Shown one piece after another: positions 12,204-24,957 of a stretch of 64,000 bases of DNA. Source of the DNA: Bacteriovorax sp. (lineage in GTDB: Bacteria > Bdellovibrionota > Bacteriovoracia > Bacteriovoracales > Bacteriovoracaceae); the NCBI GenBank assembly GCA_014377485.1, contig JACMPM010000091.1:1-64000 (forward strand), in the 5' to 3' direction. Made by a program: the position numbers and the translations under genes. Under the pieces are notes generated by a model. That model saw nothing but the letters and a program-made list of their open reading frames with translations. It did no database searches and was not told the DNA's origin. The number at the start of each line of letters is the position of its first letter. The first letter of the stretch is position 1.

Positions 12204-12240
12204 AAAAATGTCTTAATTGAGTCTTTTACTCAGTTAAGAC
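12204..12240 (-). terminator. Intrinsic terminator of the giant lipoprotein gene
   Basis: On the minus strand GTCTTAACTGAGT and ACTCAATTAAGAC pair over 13 positions (one G-U) around a 5-base loop and are followed by ATTTTTTC. The stop codon of the gene lies inside the ascending arm. Confidence 0.8.
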
Positions 12241-15200
12241 GAAGTGGCGGTCTTACTTCTTTAATCTTAATGCATGGGAGTAGATCATCAATCATTTGTG
12301 AAATCTGATCAAAATTTTCGACAAACATTCTTTGATTCATCAGCATAAAATTACTTTGTCCTGAATCAGATTTTTTATTTAAGAATCTTACAAGATTCGC
12401 TGGTTCATCATAGTGATAGTTATCCCTACAAGTGCGATCGCCGCTCTGACAAATAACATTTTTTGAAGTGAAAGCTAGAAAATCTCTAACTGGAGTAAAA
12501 TCAACTTGAGGTGACTGGGCGATTCTTCTAAAATTTTGCCCCATTGAGGAAAACCATTCTGCATTGTTTTGATGAAAAATATCTAAATAATGATAATCAT
12601 CTCTTGCAACGGTATATGTGTTTGTTACAAGCTTAGAGTCTTTAAACATTTCGAGAAGAAGATCTAAGCCTTGAGTCGTGTTGGCCGGATTAGCTCCAAT
12701 TTGAGGATTAGGCAAATTATCAAATAGTGATGTTTGTAAAATAAGAAACAAATCATTTAAAGCAAGATATGCTGTATTTTTCTTTGGATCAATTTCAGAA
12801 TTAAGTTTAGTGGTTAAAAAATAGAGTGCGGTGTTAACAGGTTTCACTACATCTATTAAACGTACATCTCCTGGGAAATAATTTTTTAATGTCGGCCAGT
12901 AATCAACAATTTTTTCCAATGCCAGAAATACCTGAAATAGATTATTATCAGCATATTTTTGATCTAATAGGCCGTATCCCTCTTTGCTAAAAACTATTTC
13001 GGGAGTTCCCAAATATGAACCCACAACCATGACTCTCGCCAAGGTATCTTCGACCAATCGGGTTTCGTTATAAGAAAGGGAAGCGATCCAGTCTACAGTG
13101 TTACCAAACAGGTTTTGCTTTTCATTGGCCGGAATAATGCTTAATTTTTTGATCAAATGTTCAGCCGATACTGAAGAAACTGGTAGGTCGAATCCATAAA
13201 GCAAAGCACGGTCGACTCTTTTAAATTCTTCGCTCTCTATAAAATTATCAAATTCTTTTCTTGTTCTTCCAACTCTGTCTCTGATAACACGTGCAACGTT
13301 ACTCCACGTGGTCATGACGGTCATATCAGTTAAAATTTTTCCGTTATGCTTTAAAAGAATTTCGTTTTTTAAAGGAAAAAGTTGAACTTTTTGAGCAGCC
13401 ATTGCTGAAGACGCGACTAAAGATGTTTCAAAGGTTTTTAAATATTCACCAAATTGAAGTCGCGAATCAAACCCTCTTCCGTTGTTTACATCCAGCAGAG
13501 AGTCATAAACTTCAAGAGAGTTGAGTGCCATACGAAGATCGCTGTCAGACATTTTACGAGCACAACGAATGCCTGGAATTTTTACGCATTTTTGTAATAA
13601 TTTTTTTCTAACAGCAACATCAGCATTGTAATCATTTCCATGAACTACCGCATTTAAAAAAGCAACACCGAGATAATTATTTTCAAAACGAACTTCACGA
13701 ATTACTGATTCAATTCTTTCAAGCGTTGTCAGATTTTCAACTGAAGAATTTCCAGTATCATTAACAAATTTTACATTAACCTTATTTACATCAAAAGACT
13801 TATCACTAGCATCGTACATATAGTGAAAAGTATCTCTTAAGCTCATGCGAAATTTTTTAGTTTTTTTACCATCAAGTGGAATGTCTAAGCCTTCGCCTTT
13901 TTTGGTTGCCTTCATCAGCATTGCAATAGGTGATCCTTTTTCTGCTTCCCAGGTGTTTTGAAAAACAAAAAGCATATCATTACCATAAAGTTTTACAGTC
14001 TCTTTTGTAGGACAAGGATAGGGTGTAACGACTTGATTGATAACTTTATTACAATCCTGTCTCGGATCATAATCTCCAAGATTTCTATTTTGAGCTTTTA
14101 ATAACTCGCCACTTTTTACCCAATCTCCATAATCTATAAAAAGTTTTCCCAAATTATTAAATACATTTTTTGAATATGTGAAATTATCTTCTCTCGTAAA
14201 AGATTTAACAAGTGCGTTTCGATGAAGAGTATTCTTCTCAGGCATCACGTCAATTAATGAATTCATCCATTGAAGGTTTTTATCTATTAAAGGAGCTGCT
14301 GATTTTTGATTTAAATGATAATTAGCTGAAGATAGCAAATAGTTTATTCCGTTTTTACTTGGAACACTTGAACCCAATGGTCCAAGTAAATTATCCATTA
14401 TCTTAGCCATCCCTAATGATGTGTTAATCATATACGGGCTAAGGATTCCATTTTTATCCAAAAGAGAATCATTGCCATTGGAAGCTTGTTTAAATTTTAA
14501 GTAATTGTCTTCAATTGCGTTTAACCAGCCATAAAGTCTAAATGCAATATTGGCACCTGTTACTTTTGAACAAGCTGTTGGAAGGCTGCGAAGCAGCTGG
14601 TAAAAACCATTTTGGATGTCAGTAAACTTTTGCATACAATCAATGACTTCTTTTGCATCATAATCAACATCTAAGCCAGCATCATAACTAACTTTAAACT
14701 TGTAGCGCTCGCTTCTAGATCGAATAATGTAATTATCAGATTTAATATATTGCAACTCTTCTGCCGCTAGTTTGTTAATACTTTGGCCATTAGAAATTAC
14801 TTCTAGGACCTTAAGGATTTGATCTCTAGAGAAGAATTTTTTAAAATCTAACAGTGTTTCTTTTCCAGCAAATTTAGAGAAAAGCTCCTGCAGTGTAAGA
14901 TAAGACATATCTTCACTTTCAGGTGTCCCCATCCATTTGTTTTTGAAGATAGGCTGAACTTCCTTTAAGTCATCCAGAAACTTAGTGTAAAAATCAAACA
15001 AGAGAACAAAGTTAGTGCCTTTATCAAAATGTCGATCAACAAAATTGAAAACAAAGTTCTTTTCTTCAGGTGTAAAGAAAGTCCAGAAATCCGCGACACC
15101 TTTAAAGCGAGTATCGTTTTCAGGGCGGCCGATTGACTGAACAAGTTGCCCAAGACTAATATATCCTTCCGGTGGAAGACTCTTAACAACGTCGAATACC

Positions 15201-16531
15201 ACTGGATAAAAATTACGCGTACTAGATATTATATTTGAGTTAAGGGCATTACCCGCTGAAAAAATATCTCCTGTGATTAGGTCAAACAGGTAAAGATTTT
15301 CAGCAAAAGTCTTATCCGGGTCACCTTTAGCTGTTGATTGAGAGATTAAAAACTTAACGAGATCATAATATTTTTTCTCGCCTAAAAACTCTGCGAAATG
15401 AGTCAGAAGTTTTATAAAATTAACATTGTAATGATTGGACTCAAGTTCTTTGCAAACTTCTGTCGATAGTTTTAATCCTAAAATATCCGTTGCTGAATAA
15501 TCATAGAAATTTTTATAATCTTTATTTTTAAGAACACCAACGTATTCTGACAAGTGAATTTTAAAATCAAATTCAATTAAGTCATTGGGCGATGCCGTGC
15601 TTTTTATTGAACAGACAAGTCCTCCATTATAGGCTTTTTCAAGGTTTTTAATTTCACCTACGAATTCTGGATTCGCTAATACTGGGTACTCCAAAAGATC
15701 TCGAAATTTCTCTCGATTCATTTTCAAGTCTTGGATCCATTGGTAAATCCACGGTACGTCCCCATTTTGATTTCCAGTTAGAAGAATTTTACTAACGAAC
15801 TCTCGGTCTTCATCAGAAAATCCGGCTCGCACTTTAGCCGCAATTGAATCCACTAATTGTAATCTTGCTGGAACGTATAAAGGAGAAACTCTAAATTTAT
15901 TAATTTCGGTTCTCAAATCTTCTTGATGCCCATCAAGTGCTTTTACAGTAAGTTTTAAAAACTGTGACAGATTATCGATGCTCTCAGGACTTGTATCTAT
16001 TAACTTGATGATATTTTTTAATGATTTTTTTTCAGGTATCCGACCCATGCGAGTTAAACAGATAGGATCCAGTTGGTTATCCACACAAGTGAAAAGAGCT
16101 TTTGTTGAGTCAAAAAAATTGGTTTCGTTTAATGCAACAATCACATAACTAAGGTTGTCTAATCCGCCTTTTGAGTCCAATTCGCGAATATTTTTAAAAA
16201 CTCGATCTCTTCTTTGCTGGTTTTCGATAAAGGACTGGTCAATCGGGGCCATCATATGGTCCCAGGAAGCCGCAGTTATTTTATTCATTGATTGAAACAT
16301 GTTAGGGAATTGTTCGTCCCATTTGGTACAAACAAAAAGTTGAAGCATGTTTTGATAAAGAAGAACGCCTTTATTAAAATTAACTTTTGAGCAAGCTTCG
16401 AGTCTTTGAATTTCTCGTGAACCTTTTACTTCCTCTGAGGCAATTTCGGGGGATTTCTGTTTTGAACAAGAAACAATCAATAAAATTGAAAGAATTAAAA
16501 ATGAATAGAGAGACTGTTTAGTCCATTTCAC
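12230..16531 (-). CDS. Giant lipoprotein of unknown function (1433 residues)
   Basis: The N-terminus is a lipoprotein signal: a hydrophobic stretch (LYSFLILSILLIVSC) with lipobox IVSC and the acylated cysteine at about residue 22. The following KQK gives no inner-membrane retention aspartate at +2, so outer-membrane sorting is plausible. The rest is a long, mostly helical, soluble protein with scattered cysteines (for example CQSGDRTCRDNYHYD near the C-terminus). I recognise no domain, repeat or catalytic motif. Very large lipoproteins of this sort occur in Bdellovibrionota. It lies 12 bases after a secreted-protein gene and ends in its own terminator, so the two form a small operon. Confidence 0.85.
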   Translation of the reverse strand: MKWTKQSLYSFLILSILLIVSCSKQKSPEIASEEVKGSREIQRLEACSKVNFNKGVLLYQNMLQLFVCTKWDEQFPNMFQSMNKITAASWDHMMAPIDQSFIENQQRRDRVFKNIRELDSKGGLDNLSYVIVALNETNFFDSTKALFTCVDNQLDPICLTRMGRIPEKKSLKNIIKLIDTSPESIDNLSQFLKLTVKALDGHQEDLRTEINKFRVSPLYVPARLQLVDSIAAKVRAGFSDEDREFVSKILLTGNQNGDVPWIYQWIQDLKMNREKFRDLLEYPVLANPEFVGEIKNLEKAYNGGLVCSIKSTASPNDLIEFDFKIHLSEYVGVLKNKDYKNFYDYSATDILGLKLSTEVCKELESNHYNVNFIKLLTHFAEFLGEKKYYDLVKFLISQSTAKGDPDKTFAENLYLFDLITGDIFSAGNALNSNIISSTRNFYPVVFDVVKSLPPEGYISLGQLVQSIGRPENDTRFKGVADFWTFFTPEEKNFVFNFVDRHFDKGTNFVLLFDFYTKFLDDLKEVQPIFKNKWMGTPESEDMSYLTLQELFSKFAGKETLLDFKKFFSRDQILKVLEVISNGQSINKLAAEELQYIKSDNYIIRSRSERYKFKVSYDAGLDVDYDAKEVIDCMQKFTDIQNGFYQLLRSLPTACSKVTGANIAFRLYGWLNAIEDNYLKFKQASNGNDSLLDKNGILSPYMINTSLGMAKIMDNLLGPLGSSVPSKNGINYLLSSANYHLNQKSAAPLIDKNLQWMNSLIDVMPEKNTLHRNALVKSFTREDNFTYSKNVFNNLGKLFIDYGDWVKSGELLKAQNRNLGDYDPRQDCNKVINQVVTPYPCPTKETVKLYGNDMLFVFQNTWEAEKGSPIAMLMKATKKGEGLDIPLDGKKTKKFRMSLRDTFHYMYDASDKSFDVNKVNVKFVNDTGNSSVENLTTLERIESVIREVRFENNYLGVAFLNAVVHGNDYNADVAVRKKLLQKCVKIPGIRCARKMSDSDLRMALNSLEVYDSLLDVNNGRGFDSRLQFGEYLKTFETSLVASSAMAAQKVQLFPLKNEILLKHNGKILTDMTVMTTWSNVARVIRDRVGRTRKEFDNFIESEEFKRVDRALLYGFDLPVSSVSAEHLIKKLSIIPANEKQNLFGNTVDWIASLSYNETRLVEDTLARVMVVGSYLGTPEIVFSKEGYGLLDQKYADNNLFQVFLALEKIVDYWPTLKNYFPGDVRLIDVVKPVNTALYFLTTKLNSEIDPKKNTAYLALNDLFLILQTSLFDNLPNPQIGANPANTTQGLDLLLEMFKDSKLVTNTYTVARDDYHYLDIFHQNNAEWFSSMGQNFRRIAQSPQVDFTPVRDFLAFTSKNVICQSGDRTCRDNYHYDEPANLVRFLNKKSDSGQSNFMLMNQRMFVENFDQISQMIDDLLPCIKIKEVRPPLRLN

Positions 16532-16543
16532 TAATAATAACCC

Positions 16544-17365
16544 TTATTTTTTTGTACCCGAATTAATATATCTCTGAGCTTTGCCAGTATTCACTTCATA
16601 CTTAGTAAATCGTATCGTGGATCCTGTTTCATTCTTAACTTTCTTTTCTTTCTCTTTTTCTGTTTTAGGGATGGTGATTTCCGAAATATTTTTTATCGTA
16701 ATTTTCGAAGGAAATCCAACTCCATTTACGCTGACGTAATCTAGATCATTAACGCTGGTAAGGAGAGCAGCCCCCTGTCTAGATGTTAGAGTGATCTTGT
16801 CTAAAACCAATTTATTATTACTCCAGGATTTTGGAGAATGATTAAATTCTGTTTTTACAGCCGACATTGGAGCTCTGGTTTCAACTGTTTTCAATTGACC
16901 TGATTTATCAATGACAATATCTACTTCCGGCACGGCCATTGTATAAGTTGCGTCTATGGCACGTATAAGTTTTCCATCAGCAATGGGTTCAGCTTTCAAA
17001 GTATATCCTTTGAATTTATCAGAAAACTTCTCAGGCAATACAAACTCCAACTTCCCTTTAATTAAAGAAATTAAATCAGCTTTAACTTCTTCAAATCCTT
17101 TTGGAAGTCCCTGGACTTCAATTAAGTATTGAGAGGGGGACATCCAGTAAATTTTGAACGAGACATCTACTAATTTACCTAACACTAAATTCTTAGATAA
17201 CATCTCTGTTAAATTGTCTATGCGAGCTTCAAAAACTAAATCGCTAACTCCACTTTTTTGAGGAGCATAGCTTCTAATTTCAAATTGTTCGAGTTCTTCA
17301 ATTTTTTCTTGTGCCCAAGTAACACTTGTTGCAGCCAATAGTATAAATAGTAAAAGTTGTTTCAT
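16544..17365 (-). CDS. Secreted protein of unknown function
   Basis: I place the start at the ATG at 17363-17365, 19 codons inside the longest open frame. It is preceded by AAGGTGG on the minus strand and gives a clean signal peptide, MKQLLLFILLAATSVTWA, with cleavage after residue 18. The mature part (about 255 residues) is beta-rich and ends in a lysine-rich tail (KTEKEKEKKVKNETGS). No family is recognised. It precedes the giant lipoprotein gene by 12 bases, so the two envelope proteins are probably made together. Confidence 0.8.
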   Translation of the reverse strand: MKQLLLFILLAATSVTWAQEKIEELEQFEIRSYAPQKSGVSDLVFEARIDNLTEMLSKNLVLGKLVDVSFKIYWMSPSQYLIEVQGLPKGFEEVKADLISLIKGKLEFVLPEKFSDKFKGYTLKAEPIADGKLIRAIDATYTMAVPEVDIVIDKSGQLKTVETRAPMSAVKTEFNHSPKSWSNNKLVLDKITLTSRQGAALLTSVNDLDYVSVNGVGFPSKITIKNISEITIPKTEKEKEKKVKNETGSTIRFTKYEVNTGKAQRYINSGTKK

Positions 17366-17428
17366 TAACGTTTCCACCTTATTAATCTCTTTTATTGTAT
17401 AGATAGGACGCATAGCAATCAAACTATG

Positions 17429-18736
17429 CTACAAAATGGAAATTATTTCTTTCCAATTGCTATATAGGCACCTTAAATGTTTTGGTTTTTTTACAGTAAC
17501 CGCACCTTTGATTCCCTTAACTCCTTTTATGTTCTTTACCTGAGTGTATATAACGGGTATTTCCAAAATTTCTAACTTTGAAAAATCACGAAGCATGGAT
17601 GCAATAGCTCCTAAATCATCAAATGATAACTTTGTAAAATCATCGGTTTTTATTATGCAATGAGAGCCGGTGTAATTTTCAACATGAAACCAATAATGGT
17701 CTTTGGATGCTTGCGCCCGAATCCAATCATTGCTACTTGCATCCAGCCCCATAACTCCAGATAGATTTTTTAATTTGAAATTCTTGATATTGAAATTGTT
17801 ATTTTGAGACTTGCTAAGTTTTTGATGAGTAATCCATAAAGGTTGGATTACTTTTTCCTTTGTCACTTCAAAGTCAAATTCTCCTCGTTTAACATTTTCA
17901 AATTCAATTTGCGACTCTTCCAGGCGATTCGTTAAGATCTCTTCTGCTTTTTTGAGTTTTTTAATTTTTTTAAAAACAACATCACGTTTATGCCAGGGCG
18001 AAGTAAGACCAAATAATTTAATTTTTTGTCCATATATTTTTAATTCATCTGAATCCAGGTCAATACGATTTTCTTTTAAATCATCTTGCAATAAATTCCA
18101 GTTTTTTACGACCTCAAGATCTTCTGAAATATTATTAATTTTCCTCGTTAGGAATTTTTCTTTTTTGCGCTGAATAGGTTGACCGCTAATTTTCTTTTCT
18201 TCATCTTTTAAATAATCGGCAATACTCCATATTTTCTGACTAGGTGTATTGGCAATTCTATCCGGTCCAAAGGGATCAACTAATGAAAGTAAATCTTTTG
18301 ACTCTAGAGTTTCACCACTCCAGCTTAAGTAAACTTCTTCCTTTGATTGCTTGGCAAAAAAAAGCTGCCTTTCTTTATAACCAAACAAGAAGGCATTGTC
18401 CGAATGGTCGTTTTTAAAATGAAAAAGACTTACCATGCTTTTATCGTCTACTTCCATTTTACCAAGCCTAGCACCAACTAAATATTTTCTTAAATAATCT
18501 AATAAACGGTCTTGAACCCTCAAAAATGAAGGTGGAAGTTTATCCGCTAGAAAGATCCCCTGATACTGATTTCCCCTGCCAATGTAGATAGCTACAGACT
18601 TACCAGGAAAGCGGACACCTAAAACTAAAAAGTGAGGCGTCGTATAGGCTTTCTGGAGAGGATAAAATTCATTTTTTGAGAATAAACTGTTATATTCTTC
18701 ACTGATCATTTTTAATTGCTGGTGAGTCTGTAACAT
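17429..18736 (-). CDS. rqcH: NFACT (RqcH/Tae2-like) ribosome quality control protein
   Basis: The protein has 435 residues: an NFACT-N-like part (1-160), a short coiled coil (about 220-300) and an NFACT-R domain with GLDASSNDWIRAQASKDHYW and FHVENYTGSHCIIKT. NFACT-R is the most diagnostic part. RqcH binds stalled 50S-peptidyl-tRNA complexes and adds C-terminal alanine tails. It is about 130 residues shorter than Bacillus RqcH, mainly in the middle. The first ATG overlaps the mutS2 ATG on the other strand. An internal ATG at 18707-18709 (MISEEY) is the alternative start. Where family members have the DR motif needed for tailing I see DK (EVDDKSMV), judged by eye. The name is by family, not proven activity. 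Confidence 0.75.
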   Translation of the reverse strand: MLQTHQQLKMISEEYNSLFSKNEFYPLQKAYTTPHFLVLGVRFPGKSVAIYIGRGNQYQGIFLADKLPPSFLRVQDRLLDYLRKYLVGARLGKMEVDDKSMVSLFHFKNDHSDNAFLFGYKERQLFFAKQSKEEVYLSWSGETLESKDLLSLVDPFGPDRIANTPSQKIWSIADYLKDEEKKISGQPIQRKKEKFLTRKINNISEDLEVVKNWNLLQDDLKENRIDLDSDELKIYGQKIKLFGLTSPWHKRDVVFKKIKKLKKAEEILTNRLEESQIEFENVKRGEFDFEVTKEKVIQPLWITHQKLSKSQNNNFNIKNFKLKNLSGVMGLDASSNDWIRAQASKDHYWFHVENYTGSHCIIKTDDFTKLSFDDLGAIASMLRDFSKLEILEIPVIYTQVKNIKGVKGIKGAVTVKKPKHLRCLYSNWKEIISIL

Positions 18737-21113
18737 GTCTTTAAATCTTCTTAATGGTAATAACGAAGCCCTAGAGCTCCTTGATTGGTTTCAATTAACC
18801 GATGACATGTCCAGTTTATCACACTTTGAGGTTACTAAAAGCAGATTGACCTCCCCGCCTCATTTTAAAAGTTCGGACTTTATTCAGCGTGACCTGGATC
18901 GACTGGATCTCTTTTTACAAAACTTTGATGATTTCTCAATTCTTTTTAATTCAAGATTGCGCATGCTTCCTGATAACGGCGAATTCTTCTCATTGATACC
19001 GGATCTATTTAAAGGTAAATTTTTTGAAGCTAAAGAATTAAATTTTTTCGCGCTCTTGATAGAAGCCTATATTCAAAATTATGCCTCTTTTAGCGACCTA
19101 GTTTTCGAAAAAGATTTTCAGCTGAAAGGCGATATTTCTCAAAAAATGAAGCGTCTTTTCGTAAATCCTCTTAGAGAATTTGTTGATTTTTCAGGCAATG
19201 CTTCTTACGAGCGACATCCCGTTTTGAAAAAGCTTTATGCAGAAGTGTTATCCCTAGAGGCAGATCTTCGAATTACTATTCAAAAAGCATCTAAGAATGA
19301 ACTTTATTCATCTCGCATGCAAATGGAAAATTACGATATTATCAATGACCGTTATGTATTGGCGATTCGCTCAGACTCATATAATTCAGAACTAGGCCCT
19401 ATAGTTTCGAGGTCACAGTCCGGCATGACCCTTTTTGTTGAACCATTTGAAGTCAGAGAAAAAGGCAATCGCCGAATTTTTTTACTCTCTGAAATTGAAG
19501 CTACCATTCTTAGGCTTACGATTGAGCTCTCAAAGGTTATTCATAGTTTTTCTGAAGAATCGAAGTCTATTTCTGAATGGGTTCTAGAGTTGGATTGGTT
19601 AAATACTAAGGCTACCTATTCATTAAAACTTGGACTAACAAAACCGACCCTGACTGATCAATTTTATTTTGAAATCAATGGACTTTTTCATCCACTAATT
19701 AAAAACCCTGTACGTAATAATTTATTTTTGGATAGAAGCCACAAGGGCTTAATAATTTCTGGTCCAAACACCGGCGGAAAAACGGTTGCTCTTAAGTCAC
19801 TTTGTTTATCTGTCTTATTTGTTCACTTGGGACTTTTTGTTCCGGCCAGCTCTGCGGAAATCTGTCCAGTTCAAGATCTTTTTTATTTCAGCCATGATCA
19901 TCAAAATTTATCAGAAGGTTTAAGCTCTTTTGCTTCTGAAGCTAAATACTATTTGGAACTTTTACAAATACTTGGCAAAAAGAACTTAATCGTTATTGAT
20001 GAGATTTTCAATTCTACATCTTCTGAAGAAGCTTCCGCTCTAGCGATCGCTTTTTTGGAAGAAGTTCATAACCGCTCATCTTCTAAAATTATAATATCGA
20101 CTCACCATCAGGTTTTAAAAACATTTATGCACGCTCGTGGTGATTATGTTTCTGCTCACGTTGGATTTGATTTTGAAACCAACCGTCCAACTTATAAACT
20201 AATCATTGGTGAGCCTGGTAGTTCGTTGGCTTTTAAAATTTTCGATAATCTTTCCGAAAAATTTGGTTTAAAAACTCAAATAAGCGCAATAGCAAAAACT
20301 CTCCTCGACGAAAAACATATAACCTATGAATCACTCCTGCAGGAGCTTTCACAAAAGAAAATTGATCTCGACAAACTTCTTGCCAACAATCGTAATTTGC
20401 AAATTGAACTAAAAAATCAAAAAGCCTCGATGGAAGGGATTCTCTTTCTAGAAAGAGAAAAAATATTAAATGATTATACCAAAAAAATTCGTTCCTATTT
20501 TGACCAAGCAGAGACACTCTTAGCTGAAGTTAAAAAAGGTGAAGTAACAAATCGCCGAAGTCTTACCAATGAAATTGGCACCATTTTGTCTGGCTTAAAT
20601 AAAGAAACCCCCAACAAGATTGTTAACTTCGATGTTGACCAGAAGTATTCACACTTTCGTCCTATATCATTTGATGATGTTCAAATGAATATGTCTGTTT
20701 TCTCTGTAAATATTAAAAAGAACGTCAAAGTGGTTCAACTTAATCCGCGAAGAAAAGAAATTCAGATTCAGCATGGCGCGCTCTCTGTTTGGGTAACGAC
20801 TGACAGCCTTCGCTGGCCTTCTGGAGTAAAGCCGACAACACCAAATGTCCGAATCAATGTAGAAAGAACTGTCAAAGGTGATATTGAAATTGATTGCCGC
20901 GGTATGCGGCTAGACGAATTTCAAAAAAGTTGTGAACTGGCCATAGATGAAGTTTTCAATGGCGAAATTCCATTTGTCACTATTATTCATGGCCATGGTA
21001 ACGGAGTTCTAAAAAATTGGCTGAGAAATTATTTAAAAAAAGAATACAAAGAACTGCACTTCGAAAACATTGAAGGTAACGATGGCTGCACTAAAATCAC
21101 TTTTCCTACTTAG
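18735..21113 (+). CDS. mutS2: MutS2 / RqcU ATPase with Smr endonuclease domain
   Basis: This 792-residue protein begins with the family signature EALELLDW at about residue 11. Walker A GPNTGGKT lies near 343 and Walker B LIVIDEIFNSTSSEEA near 420, with STHH following. Next come a coiled coil (about 530-600), a KOW-like segment (640-690) and a C-terminal Smr domain with DCRGMRLDEF and IIHGHGNGVL. Compared with consensus Smr, DLRG is DCRG and HGxGTG is HGHGNG. In Bacillus, MutS2 splits collided ribosomes and feeds 50S complexes to RqcH. GGTGAG eight bases before the ATG supports the start. The divergent neighbour is the NFACT gene. Confidence 0.95.
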   Translation: MSLNLLNGNNEALELLDWFQLTDDMSSLSHFEVTKSRLTSPPHFKSSDFIQRDLDRLDLFLQNFDDFSILFNSRLRMLPDNGEFFSLIPDLFKGKFFEAKELNFFALLIEAYIQNYASFSDLVFEKDFQLKGDISQKMKRLFVNPLREFVDFSGNASYERHPVLKKLYAEVLSLEADLRITIQKASKNELYSSRMQMENYDIINDRYVLAIRSDSYNSELGPIVSRSQSGMTLFVEPFEVREKGNRRIFLLSEIEATILRLTIELSKVIHSFSEESKSISEWVLELDWLNTKATYSLKLGLTKPTLTDQFYFEINGLFHPLIKNPVRNNLFLDRSHKGLIISGPNTGGKTVALKSLCLSVLFVHLGLFVPASSAEICPVQDLFYFSHDHQNLSEGLSSFASEAKYYLELLQILGKKNLIVIDEIFNSTSSEEASALAIAFLEEVHNRSSSKIIISTHHQVLKTFMHARGDYVSAHVGFDFETNRPTYKLIIGEPGSSLAFKIFDNLSEKFGLKTQISAIAKTLLDEKHITYESLLQELSQKKIDLDKLLANNRNLQIELKNQKASMEGILFLEREKILNDYTKKIRSYFDQAETLLAEVKKGEVTNRRSLTNEIGTILSGLNKETPNKIVNFDVDQKYSHFRPISFDDVQMNMSVFSVNIKKNVKVVQLNPRRKEIQIQHGALSVWVTTDSLRWPSGVKPTTPNVRINVERTVKGDIEIDCRGMRLDEFQKSCELAIDEVFNGEIPFVTIIHGHGNGVLKNWLRNYLKKEYKELHFENIEGNDGCTKITFPT

Positions 21114-22134
21114 TTTAATAGTATTCATTTTTACATCTTGTTCTCTATTGAAAAGCTATAATCATTCCATAGTAGATGATTTAATTGTCAATCCGGCTTC
21201 TAAGGGACATCAAAAAATTATCGATGGTATCCTTAGTTCCAAAAAATCTGTTTGGATGAAAATGTATCATCTCACCAACCCAGATGTAATCGACGCCCTC
21301 ATTTTTGCCCATAATAAAAAAGTAGATTTAAAAATCATTTTGGATTCAAGCAGTCTCTTGGAACCTAAATTTAAAAAAACCTTTGAAATTCTAAAAAATT
21401 CCGGCATAGAAGTCAGAGGTAGTTCTAACTGTTTTTCTGTTACTCACGAAAAAAGTATAATCATAGATTCGGAAACTGCCTTCATTACCAGCATCAATCT
21501 GACACGATCTTATGCTGAAACTCGAGACTTTGGAGTTGTTACCTCCAATCAAGAAATCGTAAAAGAAATGAACAGCGTCTTTATCTCGGACTGGCAAAAT
21601 GCTATTAGTAACACTTGCCAGACACCATCTCTGACGGCAAAAAACCTCATCTGGAGTCCCGTAAATGCTGAAGATAAATTAGTTGATCTCATCCATACTG
21701 CTCATACTTCAATTTTCACGACAGTTGAAAATTTAGGTAATAAAAAAATTGAACAGGCCCTAACCGAGATGGCATCTCAGGGAATAGAAATTAAGATGAT
21801 TGTTCCTCAGTGTGATAAGAACAAAAATCCCCTTTTTAATTATCCTTTTATTAACAGACTCTCACAGGGAAATGTAGATGTGAGAGTGATGCCTCATCCT
21901 TCCAGCAAAGATCGACCTTATATGCACTCTAAAATGATTTTAATCGATGAAAGACGTGCCTATATCGGTTCTATAAATTTTTCAAATAATTCAATTTTAA
22001 GAGCAAGAGAATTGGGAATTGTTTTTAATGATGAGGATGCAATTCAAAAAATTGATGAAGAATTCACGCGGGACTGGCGAGTTTCAATCGCACCAGTCCC
22101 ATTAAAACAAGGATTTTGTCCCGAACTTAATTGA
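21082..22134 (+). CDS. Phospholipase D-like lipoprotein with two HKD motifs
   Basis: The start is set at the ATG at 21082, with AAGG six bases upstream. It gives a lipoprotein signal MAALKSLFLLSLIVFIFTSC with lipobox FTSC. Two PLD half-sites are intact: HEKSIIIDSETAFITSINLT and HSKMILIDERRAYIGSINFS, each followed by the Ser-Asn pair. The size, 350 residues, fits bacterial PLD-fold phosphodiesterases that may act on phospholipid or nucleic acid in the envelope. It overlaps the end of mutS2 by 32 bases and converges on lepB with an 8-base overlap. Substrate is unknown. A lipid-anchored PLD would be in position to act on prey or self membranes, which is inference. Confidence 0.88.
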   Translation: MAALKSLFLLSLIVFIFTSCSLLKSYNHSIVDDLIVNPASKGHQKIIDGILSSKKSVWMKMYHLTNPDVIDALIFAHNKKVDLKIILDSSSLLEPKFKKTFEILKNSGIEVRGSSNCFSVTHEKSIIIDSETAFITSINLTRSYAETRDFGVVTSNQEIVKEMNSVFISDWQNAISNTCQTPSLTAKNLIWSPVNAEDKLVDLIHTAHTSIFTTVENLGNKKIEQALTEMASQGIEIKMIVPQCDKNKNPLFNYPFINRLSQGNVDVRVMPHPSSKDRPYMHSKMILIDERRAYIGSINFSNNSILRARELGIVFNDEDAIQKIDEEFTRDWRVSIAPVPLKQGFCPELN

Positions 22135-22909
22135 TTGGCGTTCCAATCCTTCCCGGACGGAACTTCATTGGATTCTCTCCAAATGGAAAAATAAATGAGA
22201 ACCACACAAACATTGCTCTTCCTTTAATCTGCTCATGATTAATAAATCCCCAATAACGAGAATCGTAAGAGAAATCGCGGTTATCACCCATCATGAAAAA
22301 CTTTCCTGCGGGGATAGTGATTTTATCGAAATCAACTTTAAAATAATTATCATTATCTTGCTGAATAACATGTTCGTGTTCGCCAGTTTTAACTTTATAA
22401 AATTTTAAATTATAACCTTTAAACTTATCATCCATATCCGCCATAGTCGCTTTGCCATCAATCTCATGGGGCTCAATTGCTTTATCATTGATATAAACAA
22501 CTTTGTTTCTAATTTCCAAAGTATCACCAGGAAGCCCAATAACTCGCTTAATATAGTTCACCGATAAATCTTTTGGATATTTAAAGACTACGACGTCGCC
22601 ACGTTTAGGATCGCTTTTTCCGGCAACATAAATCGGGTTAAAGCTAGTTTCGCCAAGTACGAAATCAGTAAAAGGAACTTTTAAACCGTAAGCAAACTTA
22701 TTAACAAGAATAAAATCCCCAATCATTAGTGTGGGAATCATTGACCCGGAAGGAATCCGAAATGGTTCAAAAAAAACAGATCTAAAAGTTAGGACTGCTA
22801 TAATGATTAAGATGATCGATTTAACTTCACTTATAAGCTTCTGTCTGCTGTTCATACCGTTAGTGCTTTTTGGCTTGAACATCTGGAGAAATAAACCGGA
22901 AAATCTCAT
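22127..22909 (-). CDS. lepB: Signal peptidase I
   Basis: LepB cleaves signal peptides of exported proteins at the periplasmic face of the inner membrane. One membrane span (about 30-47) precedes box B, RIPSGSM, with nucleophile S56. KRVIGLPGD follows with the general-base lysine K121, and box E is GDNRDFSYDSR. The 260-residue length is normal for a form with a single N-terminal anchor. TAGGT upstream of the ATG at 22907-22909 supports the first start. The gene follows the penicillin-binding protein gene by 7 bases. Confidence 0.95.
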   Translation of the reverse strand: MRFSGLFLQMFKPKSTNGMNSRQKLISEVKSIILIIIAVLTFRSVFFEPFRIPSGSMIPTLMIGDFILVNKFAYGLKVPFTDFVLGETSFNPIYVAGKSDPKRGDVVVFKYPKDLSVNYIKRVIGLPGDTLEIRNKVVYINDKAIEPHEIDGKATMADMDDKFKGYNLKFYKVKTGEHEHVIQQDNDNYFKVDFDKITIPAGKFFMMGDNRDFSYDSRYWGFINHEQIKGRAMFVWFSFIFPFGENPMKFRPGRIGTPIN

Positions 22910-24360: not shown

Positions 24361-24957
24361 TTATGGCCTGAAATTCTTCCCTATGACAAAATATTCTTTG
24401 CTAACTGACCGAACTGATTTTGGTCGGAGATTGTGAAAATCCTCAAAATGCTTTCTTTGAGTTTTTAAAAATACCTGAGCATCATTACTTTCAAAGACTT
24501 TTATGACTAAGTGTCCGCCAGGTTTTAAGAAGCGAGGCAAGAGTGAAAAAACCATTTCGACTAGATTAAGCGAGCGAATTTGATCAACGGACTGGATGCC
24601 AGTAGTGTTTGGTGCCATGTCAGATAATACTACATCAAATTGATCAGAGACTCCGAGTTCTGCCATAGTCTCAATTGTGAAAACATCTTTTTGAAAAAGT
24701 CGCACATTCGATAGATTTAAAAGTTTATTGTTTATTTCTTTGATATCCGAGCCGATTACAATCCCATCTTTGCCGATTTTTTCAGCGGTATATTGGATCC
24801 AAGAGCCTGGATGATAACCAAGATCTATAATCTGATCGCCTTTTTTTATGATTTTAAATCTTTCATCGATCTCTTCTAGCTTATAAACACTTCTGGCCAA
24901 GAAGTTTTCTTTTTTAGCTTTGTGGAAAAAGTGATCTTTTACTTTAAAATTTGACAT
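24361..24957 (-). CDS. rlmE: 23S rRNA 2'-O-ribose methyltransferase RlmE
   Basis: RlmE (RrmJ/FtsJ) methylates the 2'-OH of U2552 in 23S rRNA on the 50S particle. The four catalytic residues of the K-D-K-E type are present: K26 (SVYKLEEID), D113 (LSDMAPNTTG), K153 (VIKVFESND) and E188 (SKEYFVIG). SAM binding is by IDLGYHPGSWIQY. The length of 198 residues is normal. It follows the barstar-like gene by 6 bases. Confidence 0.95.
   Translation of the reverse strand: MSNFKVKDHFFHKAKKENFLARSVYKLEEIDERFKIIKKGDQIIDLGYHPGSWIQYTAEKIGKDGIVIGSDIKEINNKLLNLSNVRLFQKDVFTIETMAELGVSDQFDVVLSDMAPNTTGIQSVDQIRSLNLVEMVFSLLPRFLKPGGHLVIKVFESNDAQVFLKTQRKHFEDFHNLRPKSVRSVSKEYFVIGKNFRP

Follow-up and report, generated by a model that had tools for sequence, protein, structure and literature searches.

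Two genes for predicted ribosome-rescue proteins lie head to head in the window, by which we mean the whole 64,000-nucleotide stretch of Bacteriovorax sp. DNA that was analysed. The rqcH-like gene occupies positions 17429 to 18736 of the minus strand (435 aa), and the gene for MutS2, also called rqcU, occupies positions 18735 to 21113 of the plus strand (792 aa). The first-pass annotation had described the minus-strand ATG (18736 to 18734) and the plus-strand ATG (18735 to 18737) as overlapping in a single CATG (18734 to 18737), and this is borne out by the window sequence, in which the junction reads gtaaCATGtcttta with its C at position 18734. Inspection of the open reading frames showed that each ATG is the 5'-most ATG, GTG or TTG of its own frame. 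An alternative rqcH start at 18709, which the annotation had proposed to examine by conservation, was rejected as unconserved: only the two nearest relatives share it with the window, and the remaining genomes of the genus do not have it.

In most of the loci read across Bacteriovoracia, a class of predatory bacteria, rlmE, a PBP gene and lepB lie on the minus strand, followed by mutS2 on the plus strand and then by rqcH and its downstream chain on the minus strand again. The window contains lepB, encoding signal peptidase I (22127 to 22909, minus strand; Peptidase_S26, 3.9e-53), convergent to mutS2, and an rlmE/ftsJ-like rRNA methyltransferase gene (24361 to 24957, minus strand; FtsJ, 7.4e-46) within the conserved neighbourhood. 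A phospholipase-D-like lipoprotein gene (21070 to 22134) separates mutS2 from lepB here and in one further genome (G015), but is not found there in most other class loci. Downstream of rqcH, at distances within 6 and 12 bp, lie genes for a conserved, probably exported protein of 292 aa and a probable lipoprotein of 1433 aa (together 12230 to 17422), an order retained in much of the class; a Pfam search with the 1433-aa protein returned no significant match.

Identity of the two proteins

MutS2 scores 408.8 bits against the NCBIfam equivalog TIGR01069 (cut-off 400), matches the MutS_V ATPase (5.5e-23) and C-terminal Smr (5e-12) domains of Pfam, and conserves the P-loop GPNTGGKT, while a match to the KOW/SH3 domain (MSSS) falls below the cut-off at E 0.25. 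Judged by its sequence, the protein is full length with an ATPase plus Smr architecture, and ribosome splitting is its predicted role by analogy.

For the partner, Pfam reports NFACT-R_1 over the cut-off (5.5e-8) and NFACT_N below it, and a search against PDB sequences returned a match to RqcH (1.7e-6). A Pfam NFACT_N search of the window's own genome gave a weak match elsewhere (C106; 19 bits, below the cut-off), and the window protein was not among its hits. An AlphaFold model built from an alignment of 31 class sequences (mean pLDDT 88) found B. subtilis RqcH as its best PDB match with Foldseek (8s1u, E 4e-15), and also matched full-length RqcH and NFACT-N structures (6pon, 5h3x). In this model, NFACT-N spans residues 1–145, a coiled coil spans 172–221 and 247–283 with a middle hairpin at 231–240, and NFACT-R spans 317–435. 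NFACT-N is thus present by the model as an N-terminal beta-rich domain, though Pfam places it below the cut-off, and the W-x-H motif of NFACT-R aligns as HYWFH. No viral relatives of the protein were found. By its modelled fold it is a relative within the NFACT/RqcH group, and we name it RqcH-like rather than RqcH in view of the absences described below. The gene identities proposed in the first-pass annotation hold in outline, with MutS2 over its equivalog cut-off and its partner recognised by an NFACT/RqcH fold.

In Bacillus subtilis, MutS2 splits collided ribosomes upstream of RqcH, which extends the nascent chain with alanine (PMC10897456). HhH is among the defining domains of RqcH, and its 97DR98 motif is needed for the selection of tRNA-Ala (PMC8373112). 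No HhH domain was found in the 435-aa model, where NFACT-N (to approximately residue 145) passes into the coiled coil (from residue 172) with no space for one. The position of the 97DR98 motif reads SM in the window protein, and motif alignment showed DR to be absent from 14 of 14 genomes of the genus while 22 of the 31 class rows keep it. This genus-wide loss suggests, at the level of sequence, a lineage-specific shift in RqcH function. No short S4-domain protein resembling RqcP/Hsp15 was detected at E ≤ 0.001 in 13 genomes (G000, the window's own, and 12 relatives including G042 and G104); their S4 frames are all at least 210 aa long, and most of these genomes encode both the RqcH-like protein and MutS2. 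SmpB is present, so trans-translation is probably available.

The predicted system resembles the RQC pathway of B. subtilis (MutS2/RqcU, RqcH and RqcP) in pairing a homologous splitting factor with an NFACT protein that binds the 50S subunit, in the same predicted order (PMC10897456, PMC8373112). It differs in that the genes here are adjacent and share start bases, and in that HhH and, within this genus, DR are missing from the RqcH-like protein, with RqcP not found. Because of these three absences, alanine tailing is doubtful: its ordinary form is unlikely in this genus, and the first-pass annotation's transfer of that step to this organism is unsupported. The role of the variant on the 50S subunit may instead be one of binding or release.

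Conservation of the shared start

The comparison covered 129 genomes, the window's own and 128 relatives, from one family and class and 48 genera. The RqcH-like gene was found in 119 and MutS2 in 112 of these genomes, and the two are divergent neighbours in 37 of the 48 genera. The CATG is shared exactly in 27 genera, which amounts to 27 of the 36 with an unbroken divergent junction. In one genus the two starts abut as CATATG, in eight the pair is divergent at another spacing and in one it is fragmentary but divergent; among the rest, the genes are separated in three genera, rqcH occurs alone with mutS2 undetected in three, and neither gene, or only fragments, was found in five. Counted by locus, both starts share the CATG in 51 of the 61 inspected, a figure in which a few genomes are counted twice. 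The gene order around mutS2, which the annotation had proposed to compare among relatives, accordingly shows the pairing to be conserved, and the pairing survives the refutation that the annotation itself had set for it.

The named relatives obtained in a single-protein search are four Bacteriovorax or Bacteriovoracaceae MAGs at 55–88% protein identity, and within the CATG set identity to the window drops to approximately 25% for RqcH and 31% for MutS2. The relatives that carry the CATG are not statistically independent: on a quick MutS2 tree, whose weakly supported branches and long tips make the count inexact, the CATG lies on deep branches and its distribution needs approximately 11 changes. 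A nominal binomial value for the shared CATG therefore does not serve as a p-value. The tree would fit an early origin followed by repeated loss, and the best explanation of the sequence comparisons is that the fusion dates to the base of Bacteriovoracia or near it and has mostly been retained since. A chance overlap is rejected on its class-wide conservation. As a measure of background, a simple ORF caller applied to approximately 0.4 Mb of G042 and 0.3 Mb from the genome of the window itself gave 98 divergent pairs, with a single further candidate for a shared CATG among them, mazG/ybeY, whose ybeY start is doubtful. The genera with another spacing, separate genes or rqcH only indicate that the overlap is dispensable and not essential.

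Outside the class, three families of the same phylum (f17, f20 and f24) carry rqcH and mutS2 as a divergent pair with gaps of 6–95 bp, with the locus of one f17 genome split at contig ends. The genes lie apart in the Bdellovibrio-like family f6 and in f11, f18 and f23. By these comparisons, the pairing is deeper and wider than a local oddity, being class-wide and recurring in looser form in at least three other families of the phylum.

Control signals and competing explanations

Within the genus, synonymous identity across rqcH codons 2–31 (18644 to 18733) is 0.73 vs 0.51 for the rest of the gene, the second-largest excess among the genes tested, and falls from 0.80 through 0.76 to 0.67 over the first three ten-codon blocks. 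It is therefore likely that approximately 90 bp upstream of mutS2 carry a DNA-level signal, and this segment is the putative mutS2 control region. On the other side, mutS2 codons 2–11 (18738 to 18767), which may hold part of the rqcH control region, reach 0.66–0.69 vs 0.46 overall, and the mutS2-side excess of 0.57 vs 0.46 likewise lies within the range of control genes; a DNA-level signal for rqcH inside mutS2 is only possible.

A Shine-Dalgarno-like 4-mer precedes mutS2 in none of the 33 CATG lineages and rqcH in 6 of them, compared with approximately half of the transcription-unit starts in these genomes. At such starts the motif TANNNT peaks exactly at −12 (16/115 and 7/72 in stretches of the two genomes, G042 and G000), which suggests a class of leaderless genes in Bacteriovoracia. 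At the junction itself, 12 of the 33 lineages have TANNNT at −12 from mutS2 and 13 have it at −13 from rqcH. Since reshuffling of synonymous codons already predicts 10.1 (p 0.22) and 8.5 (p 0.05), respectively, the −10-like box is mostly explained by the encoded amino acids, and its conservation was rejected as proof of a promoter. Asn-Tyr/Trp is encoded at this position also in families without the overlap. The window has the degenerate TGAGTC at −12 to −7 of mutS2 (18723 to 18728, plus strand), and its genus carries this or a close variant. A scan of the window found no sigma-70-like promoter, and the junction gave no hits when scanned for terminators and against Rfam. The first-pass annotation had placed each promoter inside the other gene. 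The geometry and the synonymous constraint uphold this for a mutS2 control region within rqcH, the reverse direction being weaker, while its further proposal of one divergent promoter region serving both genes is unsupported given the outcome of the promoter scan.

The explanation that we favour, at about even odds, is an ancient divergent pair encoding two successive steps of ribosome rescue, with starts fused in the CATG and control sequences embedded in the coding regions. MutS2 would split the ribosome, after which the RqcH-type NFACT protein would bind the obstructed 50S subunit, provided that the two are linked as a pathway in this organism. As the two genes leave no intergenic DNA between them, the control regions would lie inside the partner genes, with the sequence that starts mutS2 expression in the opening ∼30 codons of rqcH and probably some of the rqcH start signal within mutS2. 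Both genes would mostly be translated without a Shine-Dalgarno sequence, in many genera probably on mRNAs with a very short 5' leader or none, and firing of the two promoters may be coordinated or mutually exclusive. Co-control of the two genes is plausible but unproven.

The main rival to co-control is that the arrangement is neutral and locked in, in that once the starts overlap, any indel or base change harms a start or an N-terminus and the overlap persists without any benefit of joint control. We consider this a serious but distinctly less probable explanation. The overlap indeed has no free bases, the codons used at the −10-like box show no bias beyond expectation, and the pair often survives loss of the CATG with a new spacing, as in genus g7, where the former site is CATA and the mutS2 start has moved a few bases downstream. 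What this does not account for is that other families keep the divergent pair despite free intergenic bases, and that synonymous constraint reaches ∼90 bp into rqcH, beyond the needs of a start overlap.

Two further proposals are each improbable. The first elaborates the favoured pair: two leaderless mRNAs would begin at the same CATG, so that polymerase fires one way at a time and sets the ratio of splitter to 50S factor there, with the Bacteriovorax 50S factor serving a tail-free RQC without alanine selection. The second holds that rqcH is expressed mainly by read-through from the upstream rlmE-PBP-lepB operon, antisense through mutS2, and that the sole local promoter is the one for mutS2, inside rqcH. 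The shared strand of rlmE, PBP, lepB and rqcH, with mutS2 reversed between the last two, fits such read-through, as does the weak constraint on the mutS2 side. It is also favoured by genera g13 and g14 (two loci each), where mutS2 is absent from the site and rqcH directly follows lepB, the lepB stop and rqcH start overlapping as TAATG in g13. An antisense leader of 2.4 kb would be costly, however, and f17 and f24 have rlmE after mutS2 on the mutS2 strand, so that the link to lepB probably does not go back as far as the pair. Least probable of all is an excludon-like arrangement with promoters tens of bases inside the partner gene and mutual repression through overlapping mRNA 5' ends, which the geometry would force unless both mRNAs are leaderless and which fits the ∼90 bp of constraint in rqcH, but for which the scan found no promoter and repression of one of two successive steps offers no obvious gain.

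Significance of the pairing

Examples of overlapping divergent starts, and of leaderless mRNAs, are known from bacteria. A literature search, mainly of open-access work, returned no report of a class-wide shared start CATG for two steps of one pathway. A survey of RqcH and MutS2 found MutS2 encoded in 97% of genomes with RqcH, and both proteins in five of six Bdellovibrionota; its available text concerns co-occurrence only and describes neither gene adjacency nor shared starts (PMC11633108).

The shared start offers a ready site at which to test the expression of overlapping divergent genes, and an RqcH variant without HhH, DR or a detectable RqcP raises the question of whether RQC is possible without alanine tails. 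The link between RqcH and MutS2 has so far been one of phenotype and co-occurrence, and their physical pairing across a whole class provides independent genomic evidence for the two as a single module outside Firmicutes.
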